DNA of 56,382 nt from Acidobacteriaceae bacterium (GTDB lineage: Bacteria > Acidobacteriota > Terriglobia > Terriglobales > Acidobacteriaceae), in assembly GCA_003131315.1 (NCBI GenBank), contig PKUV01000177.1, positions 1-56,382 of the forward strand, read 5' to 3'. The notes beneath the pieces were generated by a model. The model searched no databases. It worked only from the letters and a program-made list of their open reading frames with translations, and was not told where the DNA came from. Numbering within the stretch: the stretch's first letter is position 1; the number at the start of each line of letters is the position of its first letter. The position numbers and the translations under genes were made by a program. This document shows positions 7,825-52,329 of the stretch, one piece after another.

Positions 7825-7850
7825 TCAGGTCTCAGGTGTCAGGTGTCAGG
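7825..7850. repeat. Heptamer direct repeat (TCAGGTG)
   Basis: Three tandem 7-bp units (TCAGGTC, TCAGGTG, TCAGGTG) plus a partial fourth, immediately upstream of the ymdB start. No inverted partner is seen nearby. Confidence 0.75.
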
Positions 7851-7968
7851 AGCAATGCTGCCCGCTATCAAGCGCACGCCCAACGTTCGATGGTACCACG
7901 CTAAAAATCGCTCAGGTTTCAGGCGCGGGCGCAGTCCGCCACGAGCTTCACGCGTAGTGTACTGGCCA

Positions 7969-7996
7969 CCGACTACCGACTACTGACTACTGATTT
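7969..7996. repeat. Heptamer direct repeat (CCGACTA/CTGACTA)
   Basis: Units CCGACTA, CCGACTA, CTGACTA and CTGATTT run in tandem. Read on the minus strand they encode the last residues (Ser-Ser-Gln) and the TAG stop of the peptide-binding protein gene. Confidence 0.75.
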
Positions 7997-9497
7997 CAGC
8001 CGTCTTCAGAAAGTCGTAATTTCCCGACGGATTCAGGGTTACGTTCCGCACACGGCGCGTGTGCACAAGCACGTTATCGAAATACCACAGGTTTATATAC
8101 GGGACATCTTGCGCCAGCACTTCCTGAACTTTGGCGTACAGTCGCTTGCGGGCATTCTGATCGGTTTGGCGGCGCGCCTCGTCGATCAGACTATCGATAC
8201 GCGGATTGGAATAAAAACCGCGATTTGCGCCTTTGGGCGGAAATCGGTTGGAGTGAAACGAATACTCGAAAATATCGGGGTCCTCGTTTCCCCCAATCCA
8301 GCGCAACGAATAAAGCTGGAAAGCGCCGCTGGTGACGTCGGCAAAAAATGTAGCGAACTCGAACGTGCGAATGTCGAGCACAATGCCCACATCCCGTAAT
8401 TGCTGCTGCAGCACCGCCGCCAGCAGCCGCGTGGACTCCTCCGTAGATGTCTTCATCGTCAGGTGAAAGCGAACGCCGTCGTGAGCCCGGTAGCCGGCAG
8501 CGTCGAGCATCTGGCGCGCTTTCTCTGGATTGTGCGGGTAGGCCGCCACGTCCTGGTCATACGCCCAGCTTTGCGGGGGGAGCACGCTCAGCGCCGGTTG
8601 CGCGAAGCCGCGCCAGATGTATTCGAGAAGAGGACCGCGGTCGATGGCATACGCGATCGCCTGGCGAACCCGCACATCCCGCAAGGTCGGATCGCGCAGG
8701 TTAAACGCGAGATAGGAAAGCACCGTGCCTGGCGCGCGCTCAACCTGCAAATTTGGCTCGCGCTCGAGCGCCACGATGGTGTCGGAAGTAAGCGCATTGA
8801 TCGCGGCATCGGCGCTGCCCTTGCGCAATTCTAGTGCCCGCGTCGTCGCGTCTGGCACAACGCTGAAGCGTACCCTGGCCAAGCGCGCCTTCGGCCCCCA
8901 GTAGTTGTCGTAGCGCTCGACGACAACTTCTTTATCTTGTTCGGCGCTGACAAACTTGAATGGCCCCGACCCGATCGGCCTGCGCGTGATCTCGTCGAGC
9001 GAGCCATAGGGCACAATTCCACTCGCCCCCTCCGAGAGATTCCACAGCAAGGTCGCGTTCGGTTCTTTCAGATGAAATACCACCGTGAACTCATCGGGCG
9101 CATCGATGCGCTCCACGAAACGGTAGGCCGCCGACTTCGTACTGCGAATCTTGCCTTCGAGCAGAGAGTCGAACGTCCACTTCACGTCGCGGGAAGTAAG
9201 CGGCCGCCCATCGTGAAACGTTACGCCGTGATGCAGTTGGAAGACGTAGGTCAACGGATCCGGAATCTCCCAATGCTCCGCCAGCCCGGGCTGAATATTT
9301 AAGTGCTCGTCGCGGGTCAGCAGCGCGTCGAAGAGGAGCTCGCCAATGCGCTCCGATTGTGCATCAATCCCCACCCGCGGGTCGAGATTCGTGGGACTGC
9401 TTTCAATGATCATCACCAGCGCGTTGGGATCGGGAGCTTGTGAGCAGGAGAGGAGAGGCAGCACCCATCCGGCAACAAATAACAAACAACTTGTCAT
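7980..9497 (-). CDS. Peptide-type ABC transporter substrate-binding lipoprotein
   Basis: A 505-residue member of solute-binding family 5 (oligopeptide/dipeptide/murein peptide binders). It starts MTSCLLFVAGWVLPLLSC, a lipoprotein signal with the acylated Cys in LLSC. Family motifs include TNLDPRVGIDAQSERIGELLFDAL, TYVFQLHHGVTFHDGRPLTSRDV, IGSGPF and VRQAIAYAIDR. No permease or ATPase gene is adjacent. It lies directly downstream of nagZ-anmK on the same strand, so binding cell-wall peptides is a reasonable inference. The ATG lies inside a 27-bp dispersed repeat (9493-9519), and longer upstream reading is only repeat sequence. The stop also lies in repeat sequence. Confidence 0.85.
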   Translation of the reverse strand: MTSCLLFVAGWVLPLLSCSQAPDPNALVMIIESSPTNLDPRVGIDAQSERIGELLFDALLTRDEHLNIQPGLAEHWEIPDPLTYVFQLHHGVTFHDGRPLTSRDVKWTFDSLLEGKIRSTKSAAYRFVERIDAPDEFTVVFHLKEPNATLLWNLSEGASGIVPYGSLDEITRRPIGSGPFKFVSAEQDKEVVVERYDNYWGPKARLARVRFSVVPDATTRALELRKGSADAAINALTSDTIVALEREPNLQVERAPGTVLSYLAFNLRDPTLRDVRVRQAIAYAIDRGPLLEYIWRGFAQPALSVLPPQSWAYDQDVAAYPHNPEKARQMLDAAGYRAHDGVRFHLTMKTSTEESTRLLAAVLQQQLRDVGIVLDIRTFEFATFFADVTSGAFQLYSLRWIGGNEDPDIFEYSFHSNRFPPKGANRGFYSNPRIDSLIDEARRQTDQNARKRLYAKVQEVLAQDVPYINLWYFDNVLVHTRRVRNVTLNPSGNYDFLKTAEISSQ

Positions 9498-9519
9498 CCT
9501 GAGCGAAGCGAAGGACCTG
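9493..9519 (+). repeat. 27-bp dispersed repeat, copy 1
   Basis: Starts GTCATCCTGAGCGAAGCGAA and ends GGACCTG. Identical copies are at 22491-22517 and 54599-54625, all in the plus orientation. Here the CAT within it supplies the ATG of the minus-strand binding protein. Confidence 0.92.
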
Positions 9520-9546
9520 CTTCTTGCGCGCTCTCGTACTGCTGCC

Positions 9547-12886: not shown

Positions 12887-15736
12887 TTAGATTTCTTTCT
12901 TCAGCTCCGCCAGCAAGTTTAGCGCCTCCAGCGGCGTCAGACGGTTCAAATCGACTTCGCGCAGCTTTTCCAGCACCGGCTGCGAGAGCGGCGTGAAGAT
13001 GGTCAACTGCGTCGGACGCTCCGGTTCGGCACCCGGCGTCAGATGTTCCGAAAGCCGGCGCTCGGACGATTCATGCTCCGCCAGCACCTCGCGCGCACGC
13101 ACTACGACTTCGTTCGGCAGTCCCGCCAGCTTCGCGACTTCGATTCCGTAGCTGCGGTCGGCAGCGCCCGGCTCGACCCGGCGCAGAAAAACGACGCTGC
13201 CGCCGGTTTCCTTGACGGATACGTGATAGTTTTTCACGCCACTCAATTGCTCCGCCAATTCGGTTAACTCGAAATAGTGTGTGGCAAACAAAGTCTTGGC
13301 GCGTACTCGCGCATGCAGATACTCGATCGCGGCCCACGCGATCGCCAGGCCGTCATAGGTGGAAGTGCCTCGGCCGACTTCATCCAACAGGATCAACGAC
13401 CGCGCCGTCGCAGTGTGCAGAATCGCCGCCGTCTCCGTCATCTCGACCATAAACGTCGATCGCCCTCGGGCCAGGTTGTCGCTCGCGCCAATGCGCGTGA
13501 ACACGCGGTCCACAATGCCCAGCCGCACGGCACGCGCGGGAACGAACGAGCCCATCTGCGCCATGATCACGATCAGCGCCGCCTGCCGCAGATAGGTACT
13601 CTTGCCGCCCATGTTCGGTCCGGTCAGCACGATGATGTTGTGCGTCATATTGTGCAGGTCCAAAGACGAATTCAGAAACAGATCGTTCGGAACGAACCGC
13701 TCGCTCCCTGCCGCCAGTTCCTGAAGTTCGATCACCGGATGACGTCCTTCGACAATCTCCAAATCGCCCGCGTGCTCGGCCTCGTCAGCTGGCTCGAACC
13801 GCGGCCGGCAGTAATTCCGCAGGGCCGCAATGTGTGCCAGGCAGCCGAGTACATCCACTTCCGCCAGTGCCAGCGCGGTTTGCCGGATGCGCTTGGCCTC
13901 GGCCGCAATGGCGGAACGCAAGTCGGCAAACAGACGGCGCTCGATTTCGACAATCTTCTCCTGGGCATCCAGAATCTTGGACTCATACTCTTTCAGTTCC
14001 GGAGTCGTGAAGCGCTCGGCATTCACCAGCGTCTGCTTGCGTTCGTAGTCGGCGGGCGAGAGGTGCAGGTTCGCCTTCGAAATCTCAATGTAGTAGCCAA
14101 AAATGGAATTGAACTTTACCTTCAGCGATCCAATCCCCGTCCGTTCCCGTTCACGCAACTCCACATGCGCCAGGTACTGCTTCGAGTTGCGGCTCAGGTC
14201 GCGGAGTTCGTCCAGATCTTTGTCCACGCCCGGGGCGATCACCCCGCCATCGCTCAGCGTGAGCGGCGGCTCCGGAACCAACGTGCAATCGATCTTCTCC
14301 CGCAGATCGCCCAGTTCGTCGATCAGTCCATGCAGCGTGCCCAGCCGAGACGCAGGCACGGATGGGTGCGTGATTTTCTCAGTCGTCCCTCCGGGACTTG
14401 AATTGCTTGCTCCGCTTTTCCCAGCGCTGAAGCGCTGGGCTAAGTTAGTTCGCCCCTCCGGGGCGGGATTGTCGAGTAGTGTCCCCGATAGCTCAGTCAA
14501 CACCGTTCGCACCTTGGGAATTCGTGCGAGCGATGCAGCTAGGGCCAGCACGTCCCGTGGATTCGCGGTTTCCAGCGTGACCCGGCTGAGCAGACGTTCC
14601 AGGTCAAGAATTCCATCCAGCGACCGCCGCAACTCTTCGCGCCGCACCGTGTCCTTGACCTGCACCTCAACCGAATCCAGTCGGCCATCGATCTCGGCCC
14701 GATCCAAAGACGGGCGCAGCATCCATGTACGCAGCAAGCGCTTGCCCATCGGAGTGACGGTCGCATCGAGGCAGCGGAACAGAGTCACTCCGGCATCCGT
14801 TCCCGCGAATAGGGGTTCGATCAATTCCAGGTTGCGCACCGTCACGGCATCGAGCACCAGGCAATTCTGACGCTCGTAGAAGCCGATGCGGTCCACATGA
14901 TCGAGCGTGCCGCGCTGCGTTGACCGGATGTAATATAAAATGGCCCCCGCCGCTGAAGCCGCCGCGCGTTTGCCCGCCAACCCGAAGCCCTCCAGCGAGA
15001 GCACGCCGAAGTGATTCTCCAGCAGCGGAATGGCGTGATCGGGAGCGAAGATCCAGTCGTCTAGAGGAGTCTCCGCCCAGCCCCCGCCAGAGACCCGAGC
15101 GACAGGCGCGGTGCCTGTGGAGGGACGGGCGTCTCGCCCGTCCAAGGGAGCGAAGGTCCGCAATTGGACTCCAGCAGCCCGCTCCAGCAAAGGAGCTGAA
15201 GACCCATATAACACCTCTCTTGGCCGCAATTGCTCAAGTTCTTCTTGAATACGGCGTCCGGCCGACTCGCCCACAAACTCCGTCGCTCGAAACTCGCCGG
15301 TCGAAAGATCCAGCGCCGCAAAACCCACGCGATCCCCAACCGTCGCCACCGCCGCCAGAAAGTTGTTCTCCTCCGCGTTCAGCGACGAATCCGCCGCCGT
15401 GCCCGGAGTGACGACGCGCGTCACCTCGCGCCGCACCAGCTTCTTCGCCAGGCGGGGGTCTTCCACCTGTTCGCAGACCGCGACCTTGAACCCGCGCCGG
15501 ATCAGTTTTGCGATGTAGCCGTCGGCGGCGTGGTAAGGCACGCCACACATGGGGATGGCCACGCCCTTTTCTTTATTGCGCGAGGTCAGCGTGATCTGTA
15601 ACTCGCGCGCGGCCAGCACCGCGTCGTCGAAGAAAAGCTCGTAGAAATCCCCCAGCCGGAAGAACAGCAGAGCGTTGGGATGCTCCTTCTTGATGGCGGC
15701 ATATTGCCGCATCAGCGGCGTCGAGGGCTCGGACAT
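12887..15736 (-). CDS. mutS: DNA mismatch repair ATPase MutS
   Basis: A 949-residue MutS, which binds mismatches and recruits MutL. The N-terminal mismatch-binding domain has [11 protein letters not shown] (Phe-x-Glu motif, 31-33). The ATPase domain has Walker [14 protein letters not shown] near residue 705, [14 protein letters not shown] and [11 protein letters not shown]. The protein is about 80-100 residues longer than usual because two blocks of repeat DNA are inserted in frame: around residues 198-222 (Pro/Gly/Ala-rich) and 418-457 (from [10 protein letters not shown] to the SPGG region). Both fall between conserved domains, so activity may be retained. No Shine-Dalgarno sequence precedes the ATG, which lies just beyond an octamer palindrome. 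Confidence 0.95.
14385..14465. repeat. Three-hairpin repeat cassette inside mutS
   Basis: Three perfect hairpins in 81 bases: GTCCC-TCC-GGGAC (14385-14397), CCCAGCGCT-GA-AGCGCTGGG (14420-14439) and CGCCCC-TCC-GGGGCG (14451-14465). They are translated in frame as part of mutS. The architecture resembles intergenic repeats common in Acidobacteriota (from memory, not searched). Confidence 0.85.
15102..15143. repeat. Two-hairpin GC-rich repeat inside mutS
   Basis: ACAGGC-GCGGT-GCCTGT (15102-15118) followed by GGACGGGCG-TCT-CGCCCGTCC (15123-15143), within the mutS coding region. The second hairpin belongs to the same family as palindromes at 44185, 45831 and 52869. Confidence 0.85.
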
Positions 15737-15747
15737 AGGACAATATG

Positions 15748-15862
15748 TGATTGGTAATTTGTAATGGGTAATTTGGTAATTTGCAATTCGCCGCTGGAGC
15801 AGGGAGACCGAAGCGCCGGAAAGGCTTTTAAATTACAAATCACCAATTGCAAATTACAAATT
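15748..15862. repeat. TAATTTG-type phased inverted repeat
   Basis: Lies between the divergent mutS and galT. The left arm (15748-15789) has repeated GGTAATTT and TAATTTGC units; the right arm (15831-15862) is rich in AAATTACA and includes the approximate complement (ATTGGTAATTTGTAAT against ATTGGTGATTTGTAAT). It ends 10 bases from the mutS start and about 20 from that of galT. Confidence 0.75.
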
Positions 15863-17866: not shown

Positions 17867-18013
17867 CAGTCGCTGGTCGTTCGTCGTTCGGCGGTTCGTA
17901 GTCAGGGCTGCACCGATTTGGTTTTCCCCTGTGGACCTCTGTGCCCTCTGTGGTTCAAGCTTTTTGCCGTCATTGTCTGATCGCCAGCGACTAACGACTA
18001 ACGACTAACGACC
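17867..18013. repeat. Heptamer inverted repeat (GTCGTTA/ACTAACG)
   Basis: The left arm (17867-17903) contains GTCGCTGGTCGTTCGTCGTT; the right arm (17983-18013) has CCAGCGACTAACG then tandem ACTAACG heptamers, its near complement. The spacer holds another phased repeat (CCTCTGTG units, 17930-17955). It fills the gap between the beta-lactamase and the next gene and ends five bases before that start codon. Confidence 0.8.
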
Positions 18014-22490: not shown

Positions 22491-22517
22491 GTCATCCTGA
22501 GCGAAGCGAAGGACCTG
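22491..22517 (+). repeat. 27-bp dispersed repeat, copy 2
   Basis: Identical to 9493-9519 and 54599-54625, inserted between hemC and hemD. It is followed by short ACTGGCAAC-like phased repeats (22552-22584) that run up to the hemD start. Confidence 0.92.
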
Positions 22518-22588
22518 CTTTTTGTGGCCGGAGCCAGGAAGATGAATCTGAGACTGGCAACCGGCAACTGAGAACTGGCAACTGCCCC

Positions 22589-23407
22589 ATGCGCAAGCCC
22601 AACGAAAACCATCCCCTCGCCGGAACCCGGATTCTAGTCGGACGCGCCCGCCACCAAGCTGGCAGCCTTTCCGCCAGCCTGCGCAGCCTGGGCGCATCTG
22701 TAATCGAAATCCCTTTTATTGAAATCCGCAAGCCGCAATCGTACCGGCCACTCGACGATGCTCTGAAAAATATCAAGTCGTACGACTGGCTCATTCTCAC
22801 CAGCGCCAATGGTGTCGAAGCGATGTGGGAGCGCGTCCGGAAGCTGCGCATCACGCGCCGGACTCTCAAGCATCTCCAGATCGCAGCGATCGGGCCTGCG
22901 ACCAAGAAGGCGATTGTGAAGCATGGGCTGAAGGTGAAGATGGTGCCCGAGGAGTACGTCGCCGAGTCGGTAGTGAAGGGACTGCGCGATAAGGTCGACG
23001 GCAAGCGCGTCGTGCTGATACGAGCCAAAGTCGCGCGCGACGTGATTCCAGAGGAACTGCGCGCCGCCGGAGCCGAAGTCGATGTGGTCGAGGCTTACGA
23101 AACGGTAGTGCCCGAGAAATCGCAGGTGCGCCTGCGCGCGCTCCTGAGAAACGCAGGTCGCCGCCCGCACGTCGTGACCTTCACCAGTTCCTCCAGCGCG
23201 AAGAACTTTGCCGAACTGCTCGGCAACTTCAAGGCAGGCTCACTCAGCGTAGGTTTGCTCAAGCATGTCCAGTTTGCTTCGATTGGTCCCGTGACTTCGG
23301 CGACGCTGCGCGAATTGCAGATGCCGGTCGCAATCGAGGCCCGCGAATTCACGATGGGTGGACTGATTCGCGCGATCGTGCTCGCCCGCTACGCAGTGAG
23401 TCATTGA
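22589..23407 (+). CDS. hemD: Uroporphyrinogen-III synthase
   Basis: A 272-residue enzyme that cyclises hydroxymethylbilane with inversion of ring D. It has the typical opening LAGTRILVGRARHQAGSLSASLRSLGASVIEIPFIEI, the central DWLILTSANGVEAMW and TFTSSSSAKNF, with SIGPVTSATLRE late. Sequence is generally weak in this family; the operon position after hemA-hemC confirms the call. The ATG at 22589 is used because the upstream in-frame stretch is only repeat DNA; no Shine-Dalgarno sequence is visible. The last two residues and the TGA come from the octamer palindrome at 23401. Confidence 0.9.
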   Translation: MRKPNENHPLAGTRILVGRARHQAGSLSASLRSLGASVIEIPFIEIRKPQSYRPLDDALKNIKSYDWLILTSANGVEAMWERVRKLRITRRTLKHLQIAAIGPATKKAIVKHGLKVKMVPEEYVAESVVKGLRDKVDGKRVVLIRAKVARDVIPEELRAAGAEVDVVEAYETVVPEKSQVRLRALLRNAGRRPHVVTFTSSSSAKNFAELLGNFKAGSLSVGLLKHVQFASIGPVTSATLRELQMPVAIEAREFTMGGLIRAIVLARYAVSH

Positions 23408-23485
23408 ATCATTTGGTCATTGAATCATTGAAAACCTAAGCTCCCAGCGATTTTCAAATGACTCAATGACTCAATGATTCAATGA
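23401..23485. repeat. TCATTGAA-type octamer inverted repeat, copy C
   Basis: Left units TCATTGAA, TCATTTGG, TCATTGAA, TCATTGAA; the right arm is the near complement, ending TGATTCAATGA. It lies between convergent hemD and the PilZ gene, contains the hemD TGA (23405-23407) and ends three bases from the PilZ stop. Confidence 0.88.
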
Positions 23486-23487
23486 TT

Positions 23488-27639: not shown

Positions 27640-27830
27640 TCATGTGGAGACGGGCGAGTCTGTATCGCAACCCCAAGCGCAGGAAAGAAGTGGAACGCGC
27701 TATCCCTCCAGCCGCGAAGCGGCGACATGGGAAAGCCCGGCACGTCAGTGCCGGGAAGGCAAGGTGGACCAAGCCGGAGTCCCTTCAGGGACGGCACCGA
27801 GTTGCGACACAGTCTCGGGCGCACCAAGCA
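27640..27830. repeat. Multi-hairpin intergenic repeat cassette
   Basis: In the 329-base gap between the convergent phospholipase and sedolisin genes. It contains GCCGC-GAA-GCGGC (27714-27726), CCCGGCAC-GTCA-GTGCCGGG (27738-27757) and GTCCC-TTCA-GGGAC (27779-27792). The arrangement is like the cassette in mutS. No gene is supported here. Confidence 0.7.
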
Positions 27831-31448: not shown

Positions 31449-33302
31449 CTAGACTTCGGCGAGTTCTTCTTCCAGTAACTGTTTGTTATAGAGATCGGTG
31501 TAATAACCGTTGCGGGCGATGAGTTGGTCGTGGGTGCCGAGTTCTACGATGCGTCCCTGATGGAGGACGGCGATGCAGTCGGCGTTGCGGACGGTGGACA
31601 CGCGGTGGGAGATGAAGATGGTGGTGCGTCCGCGCATGATTTCGCGGAGATGGTTGAGGATTTTATCTTCAGTGTGGGTGTCGACGCTGGAGAGGGCGTC
31701 GTCGAGGATGAGGATGCGGGGGCTGCGGAGAAGGGCGCGGGCGATGGCGGTACGCTGCTTCTGGCCTCCGGAAAGAGTGAGGCCGCGTTCGCCGACGGTG
31801 GTGTTGAAGCCTTCGGGGAAGCTTTCGATGTCGTGAGCGATGTTGGCGGCTTCGGCGGCGGCTTTGATGTCGGCAAGTAATGCCTCGCCATCTTCGCGCG
31901 AGATGCCGAAGGCGATGTTTTCGCGGATGGTGTCGCTGAAGAGGAATGTTTCCTGCGGAACGAATCCGATGTGGCGGCGCAGGGAGTCGAGACGGAATTG
32001 GCGGACGGGGCGGCCGTCGATGAGGACGGCTCCAGGCGCGGCGTCGTAGATACGGGGGATGAGGTTGACGAGCGTCGTTTTCCCGGAACCGGTGGGGCCG
32101 ACAATGGCGAGGCTGGAGCCGGCGGGGATGCGCAGGTTGATGTCCTTAAGAACAGAGGTGCCGTTGTAGGCGAAGTTGAGATTGCGGAATTCGACTTCGC
32201 CGAGGAATCGGGTCATCGGGTGATCGGGTGATCGGGTCATCTGAACCGATTGTGCGATCTGGTCTGATTGGGCGAGCGAAGGTTGGTTTTTCGATGATCC
32301 GATGACCCGATGATCCGATGACCCGATCACTTCGTCGGCGATCTCGGGCTGCTGGGAAAGGATTTCGTCGATACGCGCCATGGACGCCGTTCCACGCTGG
32401 AAGATGTTGATGACCCATCCAAGGGCGATGACTGGCCAGGTCAGCTGCACCATGTAGGTGTTGAAGGCGACGAAATCGCCGACGGTCATTTTTCCGAGGA
32501 GGACTTGTCGTCCGCCGAGCCACAGCACGATGACGACGGCGGCGCCGAGCATGAGTTCCAGCGTGGGCCAGAGCATTCCCATGAGGCGAACCAGGCCGAG
32601 GCTGCGGCGGATGTATTCCTGGTTGGCGCCCTCGAAGGCGGCGATTTCGGCCTGTTCCTGCACGTAGGCGCGGATGACGCGGGCGCCAGAGAAATTTTCC
32701 TGGGCGCGGGCCGAGATGTCGGAGAACATGGCCTGAATGCGTTCGAAGCGCTCGTGAATGCGGCGGCCGAAATACTGGATGATGATGCTGGTGATGGGCA
32801 GCGGCAGAAAGGCGTAGAGGGTGAGCTTGGGGCTGATGGCGAGCATGAAGGCCATGGCGCCGACGGTGAAGACGATGGTGTTGGCCGAGTACATGATGGC
32901 GGGACCGAGCAGCATCCGGACCGCGTTGAGGTCGTTGGTGGCGCGGGCCATAATGTCGCCCGTGCGGTTGCGCTGATAGTAGGAGTAGGAGAGGCGTTCG
33001 AGGTGCGCGAACAGGTCGTTGCGCAGATCGAACTCGATGTCGCGGGAGATACCGATGACCACCCAGCGCGTCAGAAACTGGAAGATTCCCTTGGCCAGCG
33101 CGATGGCGACGACGAGCAGGGAGTAGGTGAGAAGTTTCTGGCGGGTTACGCCGGAGTGAAGATCGTTGACGGCGCGGCGGAGGACTTGCGGAAAGAGTAT
33201 CCAGATTCCGTTATTGAATAAGACGCAGAGCCCGCCCCAAAATAGACCGCTGCGGTAGCGCTTCAGATAGGGAACGAGGGGGCGTAGGTTCTTCGGCACC
33301 AT
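31449..33302 (-). CDS. ABC-type exporter, membrane plus ATPase half-transporter
   Basis: A 617-residue MdlB/MsbA-like half transporter that would work as a dimer in the inner membrane to export lipids or drugs. The membrane domain (15-310) has about six helices starting SGLFWGGLCVLFNNGIWILF. The ATPase domain (about 365-610) has Walker A GPTGSGKTTLV, Q-loop FVPQETFLFSD, signature LSGGQKQR, Walker B ILILDDALSSVD and switch His in FISHRVSTV. Between the domains, residues 326-365 are encoded by a palindromic octamer repeat (32207-32327), an in-frame insertion absent from typical relatives. ATG at 33302. Substrate not deducible. Confidence 0.93.
   Translation of the reverse strand: MVPKNLRPLVPYLKRYRSGLFWGGLCVLFNNGIWILFPQVLRRAVNDLHSGVTRQKLLTYSLLVVAIALAKGIFQFLTRWVVIGISRDIEFDLRNDLFAHLERLSYSYYQRNRTGDIMARATNDLNAVRMLLGPAIMYSANTIVFTVGAMAFMLAISPKLTLYAFLPLPITSIIIQYFGRRIHERFERIQAMFSDISARAQENFSGARVIRAYVQEQAEIAAFEGANQEYIRRSLGLVRLMGMLWPTLELMLGAAVVIVLWLGGRQVLLGKMTVGDFVAFNTYMVQLTWPVIALGWVINIFQRGTASMARIDEILSQQPEIADEVIGSSDHRVIGSSKNQPSLAQSDQIAQSVQMTRSPDHPMTRFLGEVEFRNLNFAYNGTSVLKDINLRIPAGSSLAIVGPTGSGKTTLVNLIPRIYDAAPGAVLIDGRPVRQFRLDSLRRHIGFVPQETFLFSDTIRENIAFGISREDGEALLADIKAAAEAANIAHDIESFPEGFNTTVGERGLTLSGGQKQRTAIARALLRSPRILILDDALSSVDTHTEDKILNHLREIMRGRTTIFISHRVSTVRNADCIAVLHQGRIVELGTHDQLIARNGYYTDLYNKQLLEEELAEV
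32207..32327. repeat. TCATCGGG-type octamer inverted repeat inside the ABC exporter gene
   Basis: The left arm (32207-32243) consists of 8-bp units ATCGGGTC/ATCGGGTG; the right arm (32291-32327) runs through CGATGATC and CGATGACC units, its near complement. It is read in frame as a polar linker (VIGSSDHRVIGSSKNQ and so on) between the membrane and ATPase domains. Confidence 0.9.
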
Positions 33303-33567: not shown

Positions 33568-33658
33568 ATTGAATCATTGAGACATTGAGTCATTGAAAGG
33601 CTCAGCTTGTGGTTTTCAATGACTCAATACCCGATGGTTCGACGCGGCTTGCCGCGTC
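33568..33658. repeat. TCATTGAA-type repeat, copy D, followed by a GACGCGGC palindrome
   Basis: Left arm units related to ATTGAATC and ATTGAGTC (33568-33600), with a shortened right arm GGTTTTCAATGACTCAAT (33611-33628). Immediately after comes GACGCGGC-TT-GCCGCGTC (33641-33658), also found at 45747-45768. Together they fill the gap before the Spy-like gene stop. Confidence 0.8.
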
Positions 33659-34266: not shown

Positions 34267-34326
34267 CGCTCTTGGCTTTTGGCCTTTGGCTTTTAGCTAA
34301 GAGCCAAGAGCTAGAAGCCAAGAGCG
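34267..34326. repeat. TTGGCTTT-type phased inverted repeat
   Basis: CGCTCTTGGC at 34267-34276 pairs with GCCAAGAGCG at 34317-34326, and the arms contain repeated TTTTGGCC/TTTGGCTT and AGCCAAGA units. It lies between the CpxR-like box and the response-regulator start. Confidence 0.8.
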
Positions 34327-36652: not shown

Positions 36653-38038
36653 ATGTCGAAGAAAATAAGTTTAGTCGTTGCGCTCGTGGGCATGTGCGCC
36701 CTGAGTTTGTTTCTGCTCAGTTGTGGCAGTTCCTCGTCCCGGCCCTCGGGACTCCTGTACGTGCTGACCCAGGGCAGCAACGGGGTAGGGAACAACGTGA
36801 GCTCCTTTGCCATCGATTTGAATAGCGGGAACCTGTCGCTGGTCAATTCGAACGCCAGCACGTGCATACCGGCGGGCGGGTCGTGTGGACTTCCGCTGGA
36901 CATTTTGCTCGACCCGACGGGCGCGGCTGCTTTCGTTTTGAATCAGGGTATTCCCTCCGCGTCGGTGGCGCCGACCATCTACTCATATACCGTGAACTCC
37001 AATGGAAGCCTTGGAGCGCCGATACTCGCCCAGACGCTGACGAGCGGAGATACGCCCGTCGCGATGGCGCGCGATGCTGCAGGGCAGTTCCTGTTCGTGA
37101 TCGATCAGGGGTCCTACCCTTCGCCGGGATATCCGGCCCCTTCGCCGACAAATCCGACCTGTCCGCATGTCCCCACCAGTGCTACCGATGTGTGTCCGTC
37201 GATCTCGGTGTTTGCCATGCAGTCCGGCTCAACCAGTTTGACATTGGCAAGTGGAAGTCCGTTCTACCTAAGCAAAATTCCGTCCGCGCTTTCGGCCATT
37301 ACGTTTACTCCACCGGGCTTTACCACGGCCCAGGAGATCCTCTTCGTAACCAACAATCTCGACATTTGTACGGCCAACTGCGTTCTCCCCCCGCACAGTG
37401 ACAATACGGTGAGCGTGTATACCGTGAGCTCATCGGGCGTCCTGACCGAGCAACCGAATTCGCCTTATGCCGTTGCCGCGGTCGATCCAATCTCGGTGTT
37501 GGCGGTCAACACCTACCCGGCGGGAGAGAATACCGGCGGCCTGTTTGTGTATGTGGGGAATGAGGACGCGAATGGCGGCCATTTGTATCCGTTCCAGGTG
37601 TGCACGGTAGTGAATGCGGTATGCAAAACGCAGGATGTGGCCAACGCGCTGATGACTCCGCTGGAAACGTGTTCCCAAGGGATTTGCATTGACGTATCGG
37701 CAACCTCGGCGGGGCAGAACCCGGTTGCAATGCTGGTGGATCCGACGAATAGTTTTCTCTACGTTGTGAGCGAAGGCTCGAGCCAGGTTTTTGGATTTCG
37801 CATCGGCACGACGGCGGGCACGTTGACTGCGCTAAGCCCGGCGAACGAGTCCAGCCAAGGATCGCAGCCGGTGTCGATAGCGCTGCACCCGAGCGTGAAC
37901 AACACCGGTCAGTTTCTCTTCGTGTCGAACACATCGGGCAACATTGCGGGCTTTACGTTGAACACGACGAGCGGATCCATGAGCAGTCCGACCTCGACGG
38001 TCGCCCCGGCGACGCCGAGCGGGTTGGCGGTGCGGTAG
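36653..38038 (+). CDS. Lactonase-like beta-propeller lipoprotein
   Basis: A 461-residue lipoprotein: signal ending LFLLSC near residue 23, then a Ser-rich linker. The rest is a repeated beta-propeller of the YVTN/6-phosphogluconolactonase type, with recurring units such as GLLYVLTQGSNGVGNNVSSF, FLFVIDQGS, EILFVTNN, GLFVYVGNED and FLYVVSEGSSQVFGFRI. Catalytic ability is not evident; many such proteins are binding or scaffold proteins. The ATG at 36653 follows GGGAGAAC at good spacing, so the TTG at 36629 is rejected. Confidence 0.82.
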   Translation: MSKKISLVVALVGMCALSLFLLSCGSSSSRPSGLLYVLTQGSNGVGNNVSSFAIDLNSGNLSLVNSNASTCIPAGGSCGLPLDILLDPTGAAAFVLNQGIPSASVAPTIYSYTVNSNGSLGAPILAQTLTSGDTPVAMARDAAGQFLFVIDQGSYPSPGYPAPSPTNPTCPHVPTSATDVCPSISVFAMQSGSTSLTLASGSPFYLSKIPSALSAITFTPPGFTTAQEILFVTNNLDICTANCVLPPHSDNTVSVYTVSSSGVLTEQPNSPYAVAAVDPISVLAVNTYPAGENTGGLFVYVGNEDANGGHLYPFQVCTVVNAVCKTQDVANALMTPLETCSQGICIDVSATSAGQNPVAMLVDPTNSFLYVVSEGSSQVFGFRIGTTAGTLTALSPANESSQGSQPVSIALHPSVNNTGQFLFVSNTSGNIAGFTLNTTSGSMSSPTSTVAPATPSGLAVR

Positions 38039-38040
38039 AG

Positions 38041-38135
38041 GGCATTGAGTCATTGAATCATTTAGTCATTGAGGCATTGAAAACCCGCTGGGAACTTAGG
38101 TTTTCAATGATTCAATGGTTCAATGACTCAATGCC
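38041..38135. repeat. TCATTGAA-type octamer inverted repeat, copy E
   Basis: GGCATTGAG at 38041 pairs with CTCAATGCC ending at 38135; between them are five left units and four right units of the TCATTGAA type. It fills the gap between the convergent propeller lipoprotein and lptFG, starting two bases after the former's stop and ending seven before the latter's. Confidence 0.88.
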
Positions 38136-38142
38136 CCGATGG

Positions 38143-40539: not shown

Positions 40540-40683
40540 TGCGAGTCTAGCATGAGAGCGGGAGCGCTGGGGTGGTGGAGGTGCTGGGTTTGCAATAGCT
40601 AGATTTGCAATGCGGGCAGTGTTCGTAGAGAATGCCCATTCGCTTAGCGAAGCTTGATTGCTAATTTTTTGGCCGGAGGAGAA

Positions 40684-42138
40684 ATGAATCTGCGTCGTGC
40701 AGTTGCATTGTCGGTGTGGTGGGCGATTCCGGTGCTGGCGTGGTCGCAGCAGCCGTCGGAAATGAAGCCGGTGACGGACCGGCTGGCAGCTTCGATTTAC
40801 AACGGGCCGTCGATGACAACATTAGGCGAACTCGCGGACGGCATCGGCGGGCGGTTGACGGCTTCGCCAGCCTATGTTCGCTCGACAGAATGGGCGGCGG
40901 CGAAGTTTCGGAGCTACGGGATCGAGAACGTGCGACTGGAGCCGTTCACGATCCCGGCGGGCTGGCAGCGAGGGACGGCGAGCGGGGCGATGCTGGCGCC
41001 TTTGGCGCGGCCGCTGAGCCTGGCATCGTTGGGGTGGGCGCCGTCAACGCCGGCGGGAGGAGTGCACGGCACGGTTGTGACGGTTGCAGACGTGGCGCCG
41101 GACGCGTTGCGATCCCGGGAAGACGAACTGCGGGGGAAGATTGTTTTTCTGGATACGGCGAAGATCATGGCGGAAGGCTACGGGAAGGCTTTGCCGAAGC
41201 TGGAGTCAGCATGGCCCACATTTCAGAAGGCGGGCGTGCTGGCGGTGATCATGCCGGATCGCGAGAAGAATAACGTCTTGAATGCGCACGACAGTCTGTG
41301 GGGTGCGAAGCTGGTTCCGCTGCCGGCCGCCGAGATCGGTATGGAAGACGCGAAGCTCATTCAGCGAGAACTGGAGCGCGGGCCCGTCACCATTCAATTG
41401 ACGATCGAGAACAAGACGTCGGGAGAGACGACCGTCAACAATGTTGTGGCGGAGATTCGGGGCAGCGAGCGTCCTGACGAGTGGATGCTGATCGGCGCGC
41501 ACCTGGATTCATGGGACTTCGGCACGGGCGCGCAGGACAACGGCACCGGTGCAATCAGCGTCCTCGAAATCGGTCGCGCCCTGATGTTGCTGGGGAAGGC
41601 GCCGCGGCGCAGCGTGCGGCTGGCGCTGTGGGGCGGAGAAGAACAGGGGCTGCTCGGATCGTATGCCTACACGCAGACGCACCAGAGCGAGTTGGACAAG
41701 TGCGTGGCCGTTCTGAATACCGATAATGGCGCGGGGCATCCTAAGGGATGGAAAGTGGAGGGCCGCGAGGATCTGAAAAAGGCGATGCAGCCCTGGAGCG
41801 ACGGCCTGTTGAAAGACTTGAACGGTGGCGATCTTTCGCTCGATACAACTTACGACACCGACCACGGTCCGTTCGTGTTGCAGGGAATTCCGGCGCTGGA
41901 TTTGTGGGTGGACATGTCGCACTATTTCGAAATCCATCACAAATCGAGCGACACGCTCGACAAAGTCGATGGGCTGGACTTCAAGGCCGGGGAGGCGATT
42001 GTGGCAGTGACCGCCTACGCCATCGCGCAAAGCGAAACGCCGATTGCTCCGCACATCGATCACCAGGCGGTGGGCGAAATCCTGAAGAAGGCGAAATTAG
42101 AGGGACTGCTGGAGCATGTGGGGGTGTGGAAACCCTGA
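40684..42138 (+). CDS. M28-family zinc metallopeptidase
   Basis: A 484-residue exported aminopeptidase or carboxypeptidase. Signal peptide 1-20 (VALSVWWAIPVLAWS). A PA-like inserted domain occupies about 100-230. The M28 catalytic domain has the zinc ligands: His-Asp in GAHLDSWDFGTGAQDNGTG, the Glu pair in WGGEEQGLLGS, Asp in NTDNGAG and a late His in HYFEIHHKSSDT. The ATG at 40684 has a strong GGAGGAGAA site just ahead; the upstream TTG at 40654 is rejected. Probably trims peptides in the periplasm or outside the cell. Confidence 0.92.
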   Translation: MNLRRAVALSVWWAIPVLAWSQQPSEMKPVTDRLAASIYNGPSMTTLGELADGIGGRLTASPAYVRSTEWAAAKFRSYGIENVRLEPFTIPAGWQRGTASGAMLAPLARPLSLASLGWAPSTPAGGVHGTVVTVADVAPDALRSREDELRGKIVFLDTAKIMAEGYGKALPKLESAWPTFQKAGVLAVIMPDREKNNVLNAHDSLWGAKLVPLPAAEIGMEDAKLIQRELERGPVTIQLTIENKTSGETTVNNVVAEIRGSERPDEWMLIGAHLDSWDFGTGAQDNGTGAISVLEIGRALMLLGKAPRRSVRLALWGGEEQGLLGSYAYTQTHQSELDKCVAVLNTDNGAGHPKGWKVEGREDLKKAMQPWSDGLLKDLNGGDLSLDTTYDTDHGPFVLQGIPALDLWVDMSHYFEIHHKSSDTLDKVDGLDFKAGEAIVAVTAYAIAQSETPIAPHIDHQAVGEILKKAKLEGLLEHVGVWKP

Positions 42139-42143
42139 GTGCA

Positions 42144-42169
42144 AGTTCTCAGTTGTCAGTTCTCAGTTA
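42144..42169. repeat. Heptamer direct repeat (TTCTCAG/TTGTCAG)
   Basis: Units TTCTCAG, TTGTCAG and TTCTCAG follow the M28 peptidase stop. A related sequence (ACTGAGAAC) occurs at 25-45 and at 22565-22580. Confidence 0.65.
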
Positions 42170-42208
42170 AACCGGCGGCTGCAGCTGATTCGCACTGCCC
42201 GTCTGCGG

Positions 42209-44146
42209 CTACGCTTTTCTCAGAAACAGCGCTCCCAGCGGAGGCAGCGTCAGTCGCAGCGAATACGGGCGGCCGTGGGTTTCTTCGGGGAGGGCCTCGG
42301 CGCCTCCCATGTTGCCGGAGCCGCTGCCGCCATATTCGCGGCCGTCGCTGTTGAGAAGTTCTTTCCAGTAGCCGCCCGTCGGCACGCCCACCATGTATCC
42401 CACTCTGGGGACGGGCGTGAAATTGCACGCGACGAGCATGGGGTTCTCGCCGTCCTTGCCTTTGCGCAGCAGCGAGATGACGCTGGCAGGGGCGTCATTG
42501 CAGTCCACCCATTCAAAACCCTTGGGATCGTTATCGAACCAATGCAGCGGAGATTCGCTGCGGTAGAGGCGATTGAGATGCTCGACCCAAGTCATGAGCC
42601 CACGATGCAGCGGATATTTCAGCACGTCCCAGTCGAGGCTGCGATCGTGCGACCACTCGCTAACCTGGCCGAACTCGCAGCCCATAAAGAGCAGTTTCTT
42701 GCCGGGCTGGGCGAACATGTAGGCCAAGAGCAGGCGCAGGTTGGCAAACCTCTGCCATTCGTCGCCGGGCATTTTGCCGATCAGGGAACCTTTTCCGTGC
42801 ACGACCTCGTCGTGGCTGAGCGGCAGCACGAAGTTTTCGTGGAACGAATAGAGCATGCGAAAGGTTAATTTGTTGTGGTGATACTGGCGATGAATCGGGT
42901 CCTGGCTGAAGTACTGGAGCGTGTCGTGCATCCAGCCCATGTCCCACTTCAGGCCGAAGCCCAGACCGCCAAGATGGGTGGGGCGCGAAACCATGGCGTA
43001 AGAGGTTGATTCTTCGGCGTAGGTCTGAATGTCGGGGTGCTCTTTGTAGGCTTCGAGGTTGAAGCGGCGCAGAAAGTCGATGGCTTCCAGGTTCTCGCGT
43101 CCGCCGAACTGGTTGGGAATCCATTCGCCCTCCTTGCGCGAGTAGTCGAGATAGAGCATGGAAGCGACGGCGTCAACGCGCAGGCCGTCGACATGATATT
43201 TGTCGAGCCAGAACATGGCGCTCGACATCAGGAAGCTGCGCACTTCGGAGCGGCCGTAGTTGAAGATCATCGTCTTCCAATCGGGATGGAAGCCCTGGCG
43301 CGAGTCGGAGTGCTCGAACAGGTGGGTGCCGTCGAAGAAGGAGAGGCCGTGGCCGTCGGAAGGGAAGTGCGACGGGACCCAGTCGAGAATGACGGCGATG
43401 TTGTGCTGGTGCAGGTAGTCCACCAGGTACATGAAATCCTGCGGCGTGCCGTAACGCGACGTGGGAGAGAAGTAGCCCGTGGTCTGATATCCCCAGGAAC
43501 CGTAGAAGGGATGCTCCATGATGGGGAGCAGTTCGACGTGAGTGAATCCCAGCTTATTCACGTGGTCGGCCAGGCGGGGCGCGATCTCGCGATAGGTGAG
43601 CGAACGGTTGTGCTCTTCGGGGAGGCGCATCCAGGAGCCGAGGTGAACCTCGTAGATGGACATGGGCGCGTGCAGCGAGTTGACGGCTGCGCGTTTTTCA
43701 AGAAAGGCCGCGTCGTTCCAGGTGTAGTCGAGATCCCAGACCACGGAAGCCGTGCGCGGCGGTTTCTCCGTGAAAAGTCCCACCGGGTCGGCTTTTTCAG
43801 TCTCGTGCCCGTGTTTATTGGAGCCGATATGGAACTTGTACAACGTGCCCTTGCCGACGCCGGGGATAAAGCCTTCCCAGATTCCCGACGAGCCGCGAGG
43901 TTGGAGTTGGTGGGATTGCGGGTTCCATCCATTGAAGCCGCCGATCACCGACACCTGGCGGGCGTTGGGAGCCCAGACGCTGAAGACAGTGCCCCTGGTT
44001 CCCGCGGATTCCACGAGGTGTGCGCCCATCTTCTCGTACATGCGATAGTGGCTGCCTTCGTTGAATAAATAAAAATCTTCGGCGGTCAGCAGGGAAACGT
44101 CGTCGCGGACCGGAGATGCTTCCTGCGTTGGAGGTTTCTGCGTCAT
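42209..44146 (-). CDS. glgB: 1,4-alpha-glucan branching enzyme
   Basis: A 645-residue GH13 enzyme that makes alpha-1,6 branches in glycogen. The N-terminal CBM48 domain (30-140) has FSVWAPNARQVSVIGGFNGW. The catalytic barrel has DWVPSHFPSD, nucleophile Asp in GLRVDAVASMLYLDY, acid Glu in YAEEST and Asp in LPLSHDEVVHGKGS. The C-terminal all-beta domain ends with LPPLGALFLRKA. Length is normal for the shorter GlgB type. No other glg gene lies in the window. ATG at 44146; a GC-rich palindrome and repeat fragments lie upstream. Confidence 0.96.
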   Translation of the reverse strand: MTQKPPTQEASPVRDDVSLLTAEDFYLFNEGSHYRMYEKMGAHLVESAGTRGTVFSVWAPNARQVSVIGGFNGWNPQSHQLQPRGSSGIWEGFIPGVGKGTLYKFHIGSNKHGHETEKADPVGLFTEKPPRTASVVWDLDYTWNDAAFLEKRAAVNSLHAPMSIYEVHLGSWMRLPEEHNRSLTYREIAPRLADHVNKLGFTHVELLPIMEHPFYGSWGYQTTGYFSPTSRYGTPQDFMYLVDYLHQHNIAVILDWVPSHFPSDGHGLSFFDGTHLFEHSDSRQGFHPDWKTMIFNYGRSEVRSFLMSSAMFWLDKYHVDGLRVDAVASMLYLDYSRKEGEWIPNQFGGRENLEAIDFLRRFNLEAYKEHPDIQTYAEESTSYAMVSRPTHLGGLGFGLKWDMGWMHDTLQYFSQDPIHRQYHHNKLTFRMLYSFHENFVLPLSHDEVVHGKGSLIGKMPGDEWQRFANLRLLLAYMFAQPGKKLLFMGCEFGQVSEWSHDRSLDWDVLKYPLHRGLMTWVEHLNRLYRSESPLHWFDNDPKGFEWVDCNDAPASVISLLRKGKDGENPMLVACNFTPVPRVGYMVGVPTGGYWKELLNSDGREYGGSGSGNMGGAEALPEETHGRPYSLRLTLPPLGALFLRKA

Positions 44147-44184: not shown

Positions 44185-44254
44185 GGAGGGACGGGCGTCT
44201 CGCGAGCCTGCCCTGAGCGAAGTCGAAGGGTCCAGCCGGGCGGGGACGCCCGGC
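44185..44254. repeat. GC-rich repeat cluster between glmU and glgB
   Basis: A fragment of the GGAGGGACGGGCGTCTCGC family, then CCTGAGCGAAGTCGAAGG (related to the 27-bp repeat), then AGCCGGGCG-GGGA-CGCCCGGCT (44232-44253). It fills the gap between the glmU stop and the glgB start. Confidence 0.75.
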
Positions 44255-45715: not shown

Positions 45716-45746
45716 GCTCAGCCAATATACCGCGAACCCCGCCGTA

Positions 45747-45866
45747 GAGACGCGGCTTGCCGCGTCTCAGATTGCCGACAAACTCGTGTTGCGACCGTGT
45801 GATTGTTGCTGCTGTCGGTCCAAGCTTGCTGGTGGAGAGCCGGGCGTCCCCGCCCGTCCCTCCACC
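45747..45866. repeat. Two GC-rich palindromes between yvcK and glmU
   Basis: GAGACGCGGC-TT-GCCGCGTCTC (45747-45768, perfect) is followed by GGTGGA...CGGGCG-TCCC-CGCCCG...TCCACC (45831-45866). Both families recur elsewhere in the window (33641, 15123, 52869). The 191-base gap holds no gene. Confidence 0.8.
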
Positions 45867-48262: not shown

Positions 48263-48382
48263 GACCACTCAGCCTCAATCCTTTATTTTACCTGAAGGCG
48301 CGGGATTGGCGAGTCACTGGGAGGGTTCGGGCGAGCGTCCAGGCCCGGACGCTTATCGGCCGAATAAACATCGAGCCGATCC

Positions 48383-48816: not shown

Positions 48817-48834
48817 GAGTCGATTTTAGCACGG

Positions 48835-48872
48835 GAAAAGTGAGGCCCGCTCGGGGTTGCCCCGGCGGGCCT
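48835..48872 (-). terminator. Rho-independent terminator of the M20 peptidase gene
   Basis: On the minus strand: AGGCCCGC, inner stem CGGGG/CCCCG, GCGGGCCT, then CACTTTTC. It lies 32 bases after the M20 stop, separating it from hicBA. Confidence 0.8.
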
Positions 48873-48903
48873 GAACCTGAAATCCACAGCCTAAAGCCTG
48901 ACT

Positions 48904-50274: not shown

Positions 50275-50434
50275 AGTCTGTTGCCTTTCTGGCGCGCTGG
50301 GCGCACGTACTTAATTTAAGATGATCGCCGAAAACGGATCAGTATATACCCTGAATCCCGGCATTTGCGGCGATCGCGTCGCGGTTCTTCACGCCTTTCA
50401 TTCTATTTCGGCCCACGCATTGTCGCCGGCGTGC

Positions 50435-50908: not shown

Positions 50909-51153
50909 GCATGCCGTTCAAATCCCGCGGCATCTTTCTCCAGGTCTTCGACGCTGTAGGCGCGATCCCAGACCTCATGTTCCTTGAGAAAGGCATCCAG
51001 TTCGCAACCGGTCTCAAACCCCAGCAGCAGCCGTATCTGATGGGCGGAGAGCACACCGGATCGATAACCCTCGATGGCAAAAGCTTCCAGGGCCTCCCGT
51101 GCAGGATTGGGGTGCCGGGCCAGGTCGTCGGGAAGCTGCACGGTGATCTGCAT
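50905..51153 (-). CDS. UPF0175-family antitoxin
   Basis: An 82-residue partner of the PIN toxin. It reads MQITVQLPDDLARHPNPAREALEAFAIEGYRSGVLSAHQIRLLLGF, a helix-turn-helix typical of UPF0175, ending with a toxin-binding helix EVWDRAYSVEDLEKDAAGFE. The ATG at 51153 begins the conserved part; an upstream in-frame ATG at 51189 would add 12 unrelated residues. No clear Shine-Dalgarno sequence is visible. Confidence 0.87.
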   Translation of the reverse strand: MQITVQLPDDLARHPNPAREALEAFAIEGYRSGVLSAHQIRLLLGFETGCELDAFLKEHEVWDRAYSVEDLEKDAAGFERHA

Positions 51154-51362
51154 AGTCGGAGGATAGCAAAAGTGGGTCTGAAATGCCATTCAACTCCTAT
51201 CTGCAAGTGCCGCCAGTCTGCTACAGAAGTGCAGCCTTTGATTTCGCGGAGTCAAGGTCGGCCGGGCAAGTTACGTCCGGCCAAGAACCTGAAACGCAAT
51301 TGACAGCAACCCGTATCTCACAAACAATAAGCTGTACAGTCTAGGTTCAACTGGAGACCACC

Positions 51363-52199
51363 ATGTCTGAAGGCGAGCAACCCACCGTTTACCACCCCGA
51401 GCCGCAAAGCAATGTCGGCAAATGGATTCTTCTGGCCGTGGCCGTTGCCTATGTCGGCGCATCGGCGTTTTTCATTTACGACCAGCACAGCAAACTCGGA
51501 AAGGTCACGCAAGATCAAGCCGCCAGCCAAAAACAAATTGGCGATCTGACCAAGCGCATGCAGTCCGCTGAAGCGGATTCCGAGACTCTGGCCCAGCAGT
51601 TGGGCATGACCAAGAAAGAATTGAAGACGCGTGCCGACGAGTTGCAGCACCAGCAGCAGGCCGCATCGGCGCGCATCGCGGCACAGGCGGCCGAAGAGAA
51701 AAAAGATGTCGGCGCCGTTGCCGGAGAAGTAGGAACCGTGAAGACCGACGTCGGCGGCGTGAAGACCGACGTGGCCGCCACCAAGGCCTCGCTCGAGTCG
51801 ACCATCGCGCAACTGCAGCACACCATCGGCGATCTCGGCGTGCAGAGCGGACTGATCGCCAACACGCGCGGCGATCTGGAAGCCCTCAAACACAAGGGCG
51901 ACCGCCAGTACTACGAGTTCACCTTATTGAAGGGATCCAAGCCGCAGGCGTTCTCGACCGTGGGCTTGCAGCTCAAGAAGACCGATCCGAAACGCGGCAA
52001 GTACACGCTAAACGTCACCGCCGACGACAAAACCATCGAGAAAAAAGACAGGAACCAGAGCGAGCCGGTGCAGTTCTATACCGGACGCGATCACATGCTG
52101 TATGAACTCGTGGTCTGGACGGTGGACAAGAACAAGATCACCGGCTACCTGAGCACGCCCAAGAATGCGCCGGTGCCGATCACCGCAACCCCGCAGTAG
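51363..52199 (+). CDS. Membrane-anchored coiled-coil protein of unknown function
   Basis: A 278-residue protein with one membrane segment (WILLAVAVAYVGASAFFIY, 21-39), a long coiled coil (45-165, heptads rich in Ala, Gln, Lys, Glu, with a VGTVKTDVGGVKTDV repeat) and a C-terminal beta-rich domain (175-270). The N-terminus is cytoplasmic by charge, so most of the protein would be periplasmic. It could be a spacer or scaffold in the envelope. Not recognised as a named family. ATG at 51363 with CTGGAGACC upstream. Confidence 0.75.
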   Translation: MSEGEQPTVYHPEPQSNVGKWILLAVAVAYVGASAFFIYDQHSKLGKVTQDQAASQKQIGDLTKRMQSAEADSETLAQQLGMTKKELKTRADELQHQQQAASARIAAQAAEEKKDVGAVAGEVGTVKTDVGGVKTDVAATKASLESTIAQLQHTIGDLGVQSGLIANTRGDLEALKHKGDRQYYEFTLLKGSKPQAFSTVGLQLKKTDPKRGKYTLNVTADDKTIEKKDRNQSEPVQFYTGRDHMLYELVVWTVDKNKITGYLSTPKNAPVPITATPQ

Positions 52200-52222
52200 C
52201 GGCAACTGTAGTAATAGTAATG

Positions 52223-52329
52223 AGGTCAGAGGTTAGAGGTCAGATTGCAGAGGTTAAAACCCATCGCACAAACGGTGGCCGGCGATCCCGTGATTTCACC
52301 TCTGCAATCTGACCTCTAACCTCTGACCT
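52223..52329. repeat. Perfect 32-bp inverted repeat of octamers (AGGTCAGA type)
   Basis: The left arm 52223-52254 begins AGGTCAGAGGTTAGAG and the right arm 52298-52329 is its exact reverse complement, ending CTCTAACCTCTGACCT. The loop is 43 bases. It fills the gap between the coiled-coil gene and yetF, ending four bases before the yetF ATG. Confidence 0.95.

Follow-up and report, generated by a model that had tools for sequence, protein, structure and literature searches.

Inverted arrays of exchangeable 7- and 8-bp repeat units in the gene gaps of an Acidobacteriaceae genome and its relatives

The short tandemly repeated repetitive (STRR) sequences of cyanobacteria include several heptamer words in one genome, and we know of no inverted pairing or site-wise exchange of words among them. 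Repetitive extragenic palindromic (REP) sequences and bacterial interspersed mosaic elements (BIME), which are associated with REP-associated tyrosine transposases (RAYT), are dispersed intergenic palindromes of fixed sequence without tandem arms. According to one report (PMC4692102), the heptamer repeats of Xanthomonas (GGGAATC) and Nostoc (GGGGA(C/T)T) are mostly intergenic and often form two nearby convergent sites, and those of Xanthomonas for the most part occupy corresponding gene gaps in two species, with differing length and sequence. We read the convergent layout described there as placing the G-rich word in the 5′ arm. Three Calothrix heptamers are mentioned in the same text. The TAACTGA direct repeats of Beggiatoaceae, some Cyanobacteria, and Bacteroidetes are reported to form intergenic heptamer arrays close upstream of start codons (PMC4679880). 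Mrazek 2007 is cited in both papers for the finding that heptamers are the most abundant long simple sequence repeats in most genomes and for the proposal that slippage is tied to the length of DNA contacted by the polymerase. Here, we describe a 56,382-bp stretch of an Acidobacteriaceae bacterium (assembly GCA_003131315.1, contig PKUV01000177.1, positions 1 to 56,382; hereafter the window), part of one contig of a 6.0-Mb genome, which carries arrays of 7- and 8-bp units, many of them paired as the inverted arms of hairpins.

The arrays share with the Xanthomonas and Nostoc repeats, as presented in PMC4692102, the heptamer unit, the intergenic location, the convergent inverted pairs, and the recurrence in the same gaps of relatives with varying sequence. 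Because heptamer hairpins are already known in Xanthomonas, we file the present arrays with that kind, as a variant of it. There, each organism is reported to have one word type, which forms G-quadruplexes and is under-represented between divergent genes. Here, in contrast, there are many words, a second class with a unit length (k) of 8, mostly no G-tracts, occupation of about half or more of the ribosomal-operon gaps, and no depletion in divergent gaps (10/37, with 10/36 in convergent gaps). GGG or CCC occurs among the listed words solely in the ATCGGG type and a few other 8-mers, and in none of 20 7-mers. The TAACTGA system, as reported, has one favoured word, direct repeats with a single indirect case, and rare related heptamers, whereas the present arrays are inverted and variable. 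Rotated to TGATAAC, that word fits TRANRRC, a pattern described below; this is expected for a few percent of random 7-mers and is only a hint. Inverted layout, an octamer class, and word exchange are not among the features for which Mrazek 2007 is cited in the available parts of the two papers. Y1 transposase genes of the RAYT kind are present in the genome, but a link to the arrays was not found, and the arrays have many words and no fixed palindrome, unlike REP and BIME. A literature search of titles and the beginnings of abstracts, which covered few subscription papers, gave no recognisable report of comparable acidobacterial arrays or of words being exchanged at a fixed position.

We interpret the arrays, with a probability of about 0.5, as fast-evolving inverted short-tandem-repeat hairpins that arise and are renewed through DNA copying by the cell itself, rather than as one fixed element in many copies. 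Related species often have the hairpin in the same position with another word in it, a pattern suggestive of DNA copying in steps of seven or eight bases. This process is most likely mutational and consists of 7–8-nt slippage and fold-back copying of the G/T-rich strand. The preference of bacteria for seven-base repeat units is an old open point, and one operon common to all species provides about 25 comparable sites per genome where interchangeable 7- or 8-base hairpins come and go. A strand rule, by which the 5′ arm is G/T-rich, gives a simple and testable handle on the mechanism. How these bacteria express the ribosomal operon also becomes a question, given the many hairpins within it.

The unit length and the inverted layout were analyzed in the window together with 20 more stretches from its genome (in all, 438,714 bp out of 6.0 Mb), in which genes were called by a home-made codon model with approximate start codons. 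This sample contained 61 strong intergenic arrays, 52 of them with a unit of 7, 8, 14, or 16 bp, and ten shuffles of the intergenic sequence yielded none. Arrays at k = 7 or 8 were intergenic in 38 cases and coding in 5. When 257 gaps (79,041 bp) were scanned for inverted tandem pairs irrespective of sequence, 17 pairs were found at k = 7, 12 at k = 8, 3 at k = 5, and 1 at k = 14, and zero at the remaining k from 4 to 16. Dinucleotide shuffles gave about 0.02 pairs at k = 7 and 8, and at most one at any k in 50 shuffles. An inverted partner scoring at least 14 was present for 55 of 90 arrays, versus 0 of 90 with shuffled flanks. These counts support the proposal, made from the sequence of the window before this analysis (the original prediction), that a unit length of 7 or 8 and the inverted layout are fixed independently of the word: the lengths were not scattered, and shuffled sequence did not reproduce the number of arrays. 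The two arms usually carry the same word with at most one mismatch (77% of 61 pairs at k = 7 and 81% of 21 at k = 8), as compared with 11% and 21%, respectively, for arms of other hairpins. Comparable arrays recur in named assemblies from several projects, which weighs against an assembly artefact.

One of the stretches (L020, 24–18721) holds the S10-spc-alpha ribosomal protein operon, where 16 of 24 gaps of at least 45 bp contain a 7/8 array. This operon was compared among 41 genomes, including 17 members of the genus; the unit-length scan of its gaps and the looser polarity set mentioned below use other thresholds than the own-genome pair search and the strict polarity set. Of the 337 genus gaps that measure at least 45 bp, 174 had a 7/8 array (209 at a looser score), and shuffled gaps had 1 of 1011 at the strict score and 13 of 1011 at the looser one. 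The matches numbered 149 at k = 7, 30 at k = 8, and 4 at other k from 4 to 12. One genus member, G022 (L106), had no detectable 7/8 array in 25 gaps, though they are equally long, and looks as if its arrays had decayed. Other members of the family had several to many arrays (G029, G031, and G026), few (G024, G027, G028, and G035), or zero in the ribosomal gaps (G030, G033, G034, and G036). Seven genomes of a neighbouring family of the same order (f2) had zero arrays in 47 gaps; the median gap is 13–22 bp in six of these and 50 bp in the seventh (G038), and 74–117 bp in the genus. Among six genomes from other families of the class, three (G051, G057, and G058) had one or two arrays. Apart from the arrays, the rpsN–rpsH gap holds a stem-loop-like block (CAGGTTCTCCGC ... 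GCGGAGCGAACG) ahead of rpsH, possibly a regulatory RNA, with an exact first half in 16 of the 39 genomes compared and close variants in G000 and G020.

Over 21 ribosomal gaps, a tree built from 25 of the 41 genomes requires at least 93 changes of word class (assigned by the nearest prototype); classes A and B intergrade, and part of these changes is drift. Between genomes, words match in 39% of 715 pairs when both come from the same gap and in 15.5% of 15,622 pairs when they come from different gaps. Within one genome, words of different gaps match in 20.7% of 1,241 pairs versus 15.9% when genome labels are shuffled within gaps, and 0 of 300 permutations reach the observed value (15 genus members were named, with G022 yielding no words). 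Thus, the sites are inherited, the words change, and words spread along the genome. A common process independent of the word, as suggested originally, is supported, since orthologous gaps often retain the hairpin under a changed word. The accompanying statement that the arrays do not descend from one ancestor has to be amended, because the excess of same-gap matches shows that descent counts.

Two sites in the window illustrate the exchange. The gap downstream of lptFG was compared in 48 loci, the relatives at about 90% protein identity being Terriglobia and "Acidobacteriaceae" metagenome assemblies. The same inverted layout was found with the words CATTGA, CATCGGG, GCGAGTA, GAGGTCT, AGGGTCA-like, CAGTGGC, or AATTTGTA, and many relatives are without any array. 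The second site is within a coding sequence: the array of an ABC transporter gene falls between the transmembrane domain (residues 21–291) and the ATPase domain (residues 385–537). Among the 27 of 28 matching loci read (the stretch of L047 is without the linker), CATCGGG-type hairpins occupy this linker in L033, L035, and L037, a CATCGGG/CATTGA mix in L065, and a CGAGCCA 7-mer hairpin in L032. Another GC-rich palindrome is present, whole or in parts, in L031, L034, L036, L040, L042, and L049, and most other orthologues read have no such array. Such variety at a single site indicates exchange, and it speaks against a role limited to the mRNA between genes.

The linker bears on the explanation that the hairpins are selected as RNA, where an intercistronic hairpin would insulate, stabilise, or process the mRNA and the sequence is free as long as the hairpin stays. 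We regard this explanation as unlikely. In the ribosomal gaps (55 hairpins of 15 genomes), hairpins start at a median of 5 nt (quartiles, 3–6) past the stop codon and end 13 nt ahead of the next start codon, a placement that suits an RNA role, as does the turnover of words while the hairpin often persists. The 97 array gaps of eight genomes also fold better than their shuffles (mean z, −4.1), but 73 array-free gaps do so almost equally well (z, −3.3). Moreover, the order of units brings no benefit for pairing, and relatives of the same order live without arrays. In gaps of at least 60 bp, arrays occur at similar rates between convergent (10/36), tandem (41/166), and divergent (10/37) genes. 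These equal rates, together with the hairpin in a coding linker, favour a process at the DNA level. Intrinsic terminators were ruled out, because only 3 of 24 hairpins have a T-tract after the stem, a preference for gene ends is absent, and arrays lie between divergent genes and inside operons. A generic terminator scan of 37000–43000 in the window gave no clear excess.

The strand rule held in 27 of 27 own-genome pairs of the strict set, which includes convergent and divergent gaps, the 5′ arm always being richer in G+T. It held by 43 to 1 of 45 in the looser own-genome set and in 14 of 16 pairs taken from five genomes that represent three further families of the phylum. In G121 and G068, a TGAGGAC-type word lies in the left arm, opposite to the window genome, so it is composition, not the word, that the rule tracks there. 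Such a rule would result if a G/T-rich nascent strand primed its own copying by folding back through G·T pairing. The G/T-rich strand points to the centre, as in head-to-head telomere fusions. A telomerase-like enzyme with short RNA templates could write 7–8-nt repeats at DNA ends before their head-to-head joining. This is very improbable: many words would require many templates, and no reverse transcriptase (PF00078) was found in the array-bearing genomes G006 (98% complete), G031 (100%), G002 (98%), and G020 (96%). The telomerase-like reading would call for a polymerase outside PF00078. A reverse transcriptase was rejected as a necessary factor on the basis of the same four genomes.

Contrary to what had been stated at the outset, the unit sequences are not unrelated but share a consensus. 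Twenty distinct own-genome 7-mers converge on TRANARC (information, 5.08; letter-shuffled maximum, 4.48) and 17 8-mers on YCRATGNC (5.51 versus 4.37). Triplets of TRANRRC occur at 178 places in the own genome versus 3 for the backward control, and in 28 of 119 Acidobacteriota genomes, some of them distant from the family of the window. Stretches of six genomes, picked for their TRANRRC matches, contained for the most part intergenic arrays with 7-bp units, along with other words and some inverted pairs; of the nine G121 pairs, two have an arm in common. The words might be held to a shared consensus by a protein that binds tandem repeats in DNA or RNA, and both the excess over letter-shuffled controls and the TRANRRC triplets in other families of the phylum are compatible with such binding arrays. 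We consider this quite improbable, because the turnover of words per site exceeds what is expected of a binding site and every gap type is affected. In some distant genomes (e.g. G109), moreover, the backward control is as common as TRANRRC or commoner, so other words are in use there.

Mobile palindromes of the REP, BIME, or miniature inverted-repeat transposable element (MITE) type that depend on a transposase, for instance one of the genome's Y1 (RAYT) enzymes, would account for the 11 Y1_Tnp matches, the dozens of CATTGA-type matches, the occupation of the same sites by other palindromes, and the whole-cassette differences between close relatives. Among 26 loops compared, six pairs matched at E below 0.05, two of them truly alike and four short; the alike pairs are those of the hairpins at 23417 and 38043 (17-nt match, E = 1.8e-4) and of L016 at 13978 and 15744 (E = 0.011, different words). 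The latter two hairpins, L016:13978–14052 (CATCGGG) and L016:15744–15848 (CATTGA/CATCGG mix), are 1.7 kb apart. Loops at different loci are mostly unrelated, however. None of the 11 Y1 loci has a 7- or 8-bp array directly adjoining the Y1 gene; arrays lie further off in L082 and L086, and weak 14- and 16-bp repeats are nearby in L089 and L091. Y1 counts do not track arrays: G030 carries 16 copies but is array-free in 8 gaps, G016 has arrays with one copy, and G008 (83% completeness) has arrays with no Y1 gene found. The rpoA–rplQ hairpin has no close whole-cassette donor, the best long matches being 86% over 78 and 89% over 70 of its 96 bases, and 95% is reached over 44 bases only. A mobile origin is therefore doubtful, and Y1 transposase as a general cause was rejected for the lack of adjoining arrays and of a link between copy numbers and arrays. 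Sites with and without arrays both exist among relatives, at species distances too great for judging target duplications.

Returning to the preferred interpretation, namely copying by the cell's own machinery, we propose a mechanism in three steps. First, slippage at replication in 7–8-nt steps would multiply a word. Second, the 3′ end of a G/T-rich nascent strand may fold back through G·T pairing and be copied into an inverted arm, so that the G/T-rich arm would come to lie on the 5′ side of both strands. Third, repeated slippage and template switching probably maintain the observed pattern of one word per arm pair with scrambled unit order, while words would drift or be swapped and spread between loci of one genome. 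Homogenisation of arms through template switching is reported in yeast (PMC8604942). Selection would remove any hairpin that falls on a gene, a stop codon, or a ribosome-binding site, and we propose that the hairpins consequently fill the remainder of each gap.

Several observations weigh against this interpretation. Permuting the units of one arm did not lower the pairing (36 hairpins, p = 0.14), and fine unit variants were no closer to their own arm than to other hairpins of the same class (0.41 versus 0.36, p = 0.25, 54 comparisons); recent arm-to-arm copying is thus not seen directly. Among indels of at least 4 bases, lengths divisible by 7 or 8 made up 72 of 264 in array gaps and 22 of 80 in the remaining gaps, no excess in these divergent alignments; at such species distances, the birth and death of units between relatives did not show. 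At rplR|rpsE, entire cassettes distinguish the close relatives G001 and G010, a difference that resembles replacement more than drift. The strand rule has exceptions in ribosomal gaps (121 versus 27 of 155; 59 versus 12 of 74 when ribosomal gaps and the own genome are pooled), and one distant genome follows it in only 2 of 4 pairs. Hairpins that did not score as 7/8 arrays are likewise G+T-biased in ribosomal gaps (52 versus 8 of 65) and weakly so in the own genome (34 versus 20 of 58); the polarity may therefore not be special to arrays, although some of these biased hairpins may be decayed arrays. Nor does the interpretation account for a step of 7 or 8. Slippage with hairpin templating, one of the two mechanisms suggested originally, is the best fit, and the unit-order and indel-step tests lent it no support.

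The other suggested mechanism was a dedicated enzyme. A specialised DNA-copying activity might write and rewrite inverted 7–8-nt arrays in permissive gaps, with the G/T-rich strand inward and a genome-wide vocabulary of words, G022 being a natural loss. We rate this as rather improbable; few candidate families were covered, and of these the reverse transcriptase was not found in the nearly complete genomes listed above. The usual hairpin nuclease SbcD may be missing or divergent in the 61 related genomes, none of which passes the TIGR00619 cut-off (13 weak matches); among 14 control genomes, 8 pass it. Palindromes may be tolerated where SbcD is lacking, but array-rich and array-free relatives do not differ in this respect. 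IMS (Y-family) polymerases (PF00817) occur in 56 of the 61 genomes and are uninformative. The idea that units avoid multiples of three to place stop codons in all frames was dropped, as several words, judged by eye, have no stops, and 5, 10, or 11 would serve equally.

The arrays of the window are listed in Table 1. All eight arrays named originally besides TCATTGAA were located by Tandem Repeats Finder and in the raw sequence, with corrected coordinates and units. Three units given as 8-mers are 7-mers or mixed: the "AGGTCAGA" array (52222–52244; partner, 52308–52329) and the "TTGGCTTT" array (34268–34298; partner, 34295–34325, loop absent) have 7-bp units, and the "GGTAATTT" array (15742–15783; partner, 15830–15862) mixes 7- and 8-bp steps. 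The TCATCGGG array (32207–32241) has its partner at 32292–32327. The ACTAACG array is at 17988–18012, and its inverted partner, GTCGTTC (17869–17890), accounts for the array placed near 17867. The pair with touching arms was missed by the automatic pair search and seen in the Tandem Repeats Finder output and raw letters. The description of most arrays as inverted arms thus holds for five of the eight and fails for those at 7825, 7960, and 42144, for which the partner search gave top scores of 9 (7825/7960 cluster) and 6 (42144).

Table 1. Repeat arrays and the array-bearing gene in the window
Feature	Position	Strand	Remark
7-bp array ACTGAGA	25..50		start of window
8-bp inverted pair CATTGA+NN	1098..1191		
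8-bp inverted pair CATTGA+NN	5015..5087		convergent gene gap
Lone 7-bp array TCAGGTG	7825..7850		no inverted partner found
Lone 7-bp array TACTGAC (named as CTGACTA)	7960..7993		no inverted partner found
7/8-bp inverted pair ATTTGTA ... AAATTAC	15742..15862		divergent gap
7-bp inverted pair GTCGTTC ... CGACTAA	17869..18012		long loop
7-bp array ACTGGCA	22553..22584		
8-bp inverted pair CATTGA+NN	23397..23487		loop resembles 38043 loop
ABC transporter gene	31449..33302	-	
8-bp inverted pair ATCGGGTC	32207..32327		in frame within ABC transporter gene
8-bp inverted pair CATTGA+NN	33568..33628		
7-bp inverted pair GCTTTTG ... AGCCAAG	34268..34325		arms touch
8-bp inverted pair CATTGA+NN	38043..38133		lptFG gap, orthologous gaps compared in relatives
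Lone 7-bp array AGTTCTC (named as TTCTCAG)	42144..42168		no inverted partner found
7-bp inverted pair GAGGTCA ... TCTGACC	52222..52329		

Further dispersed palindromic repeats of the CATCCTGAGCGAAGCGAAGGA, GTAGAGACGCGGCTTGCCGCGTC, and GGCGTCCCCGCCCG types are present in the window (9495–9515, 22493–22513, 54601–54621, 45744–45766, 44237–44250, and 45843–45856), and palindromes akin to these types fill ribosomal gaps or the ABC transporter linker in relatives. An Rfam scan of the window at the gathering score returned only one tRNA and two Acido-Lenti-1 RNAs (RF01687), none of them at any array. The Acido-Lenti-1 RNAs lie at 14420–14465 and 27710–27755, the former inside a called gene on the opposite strand.

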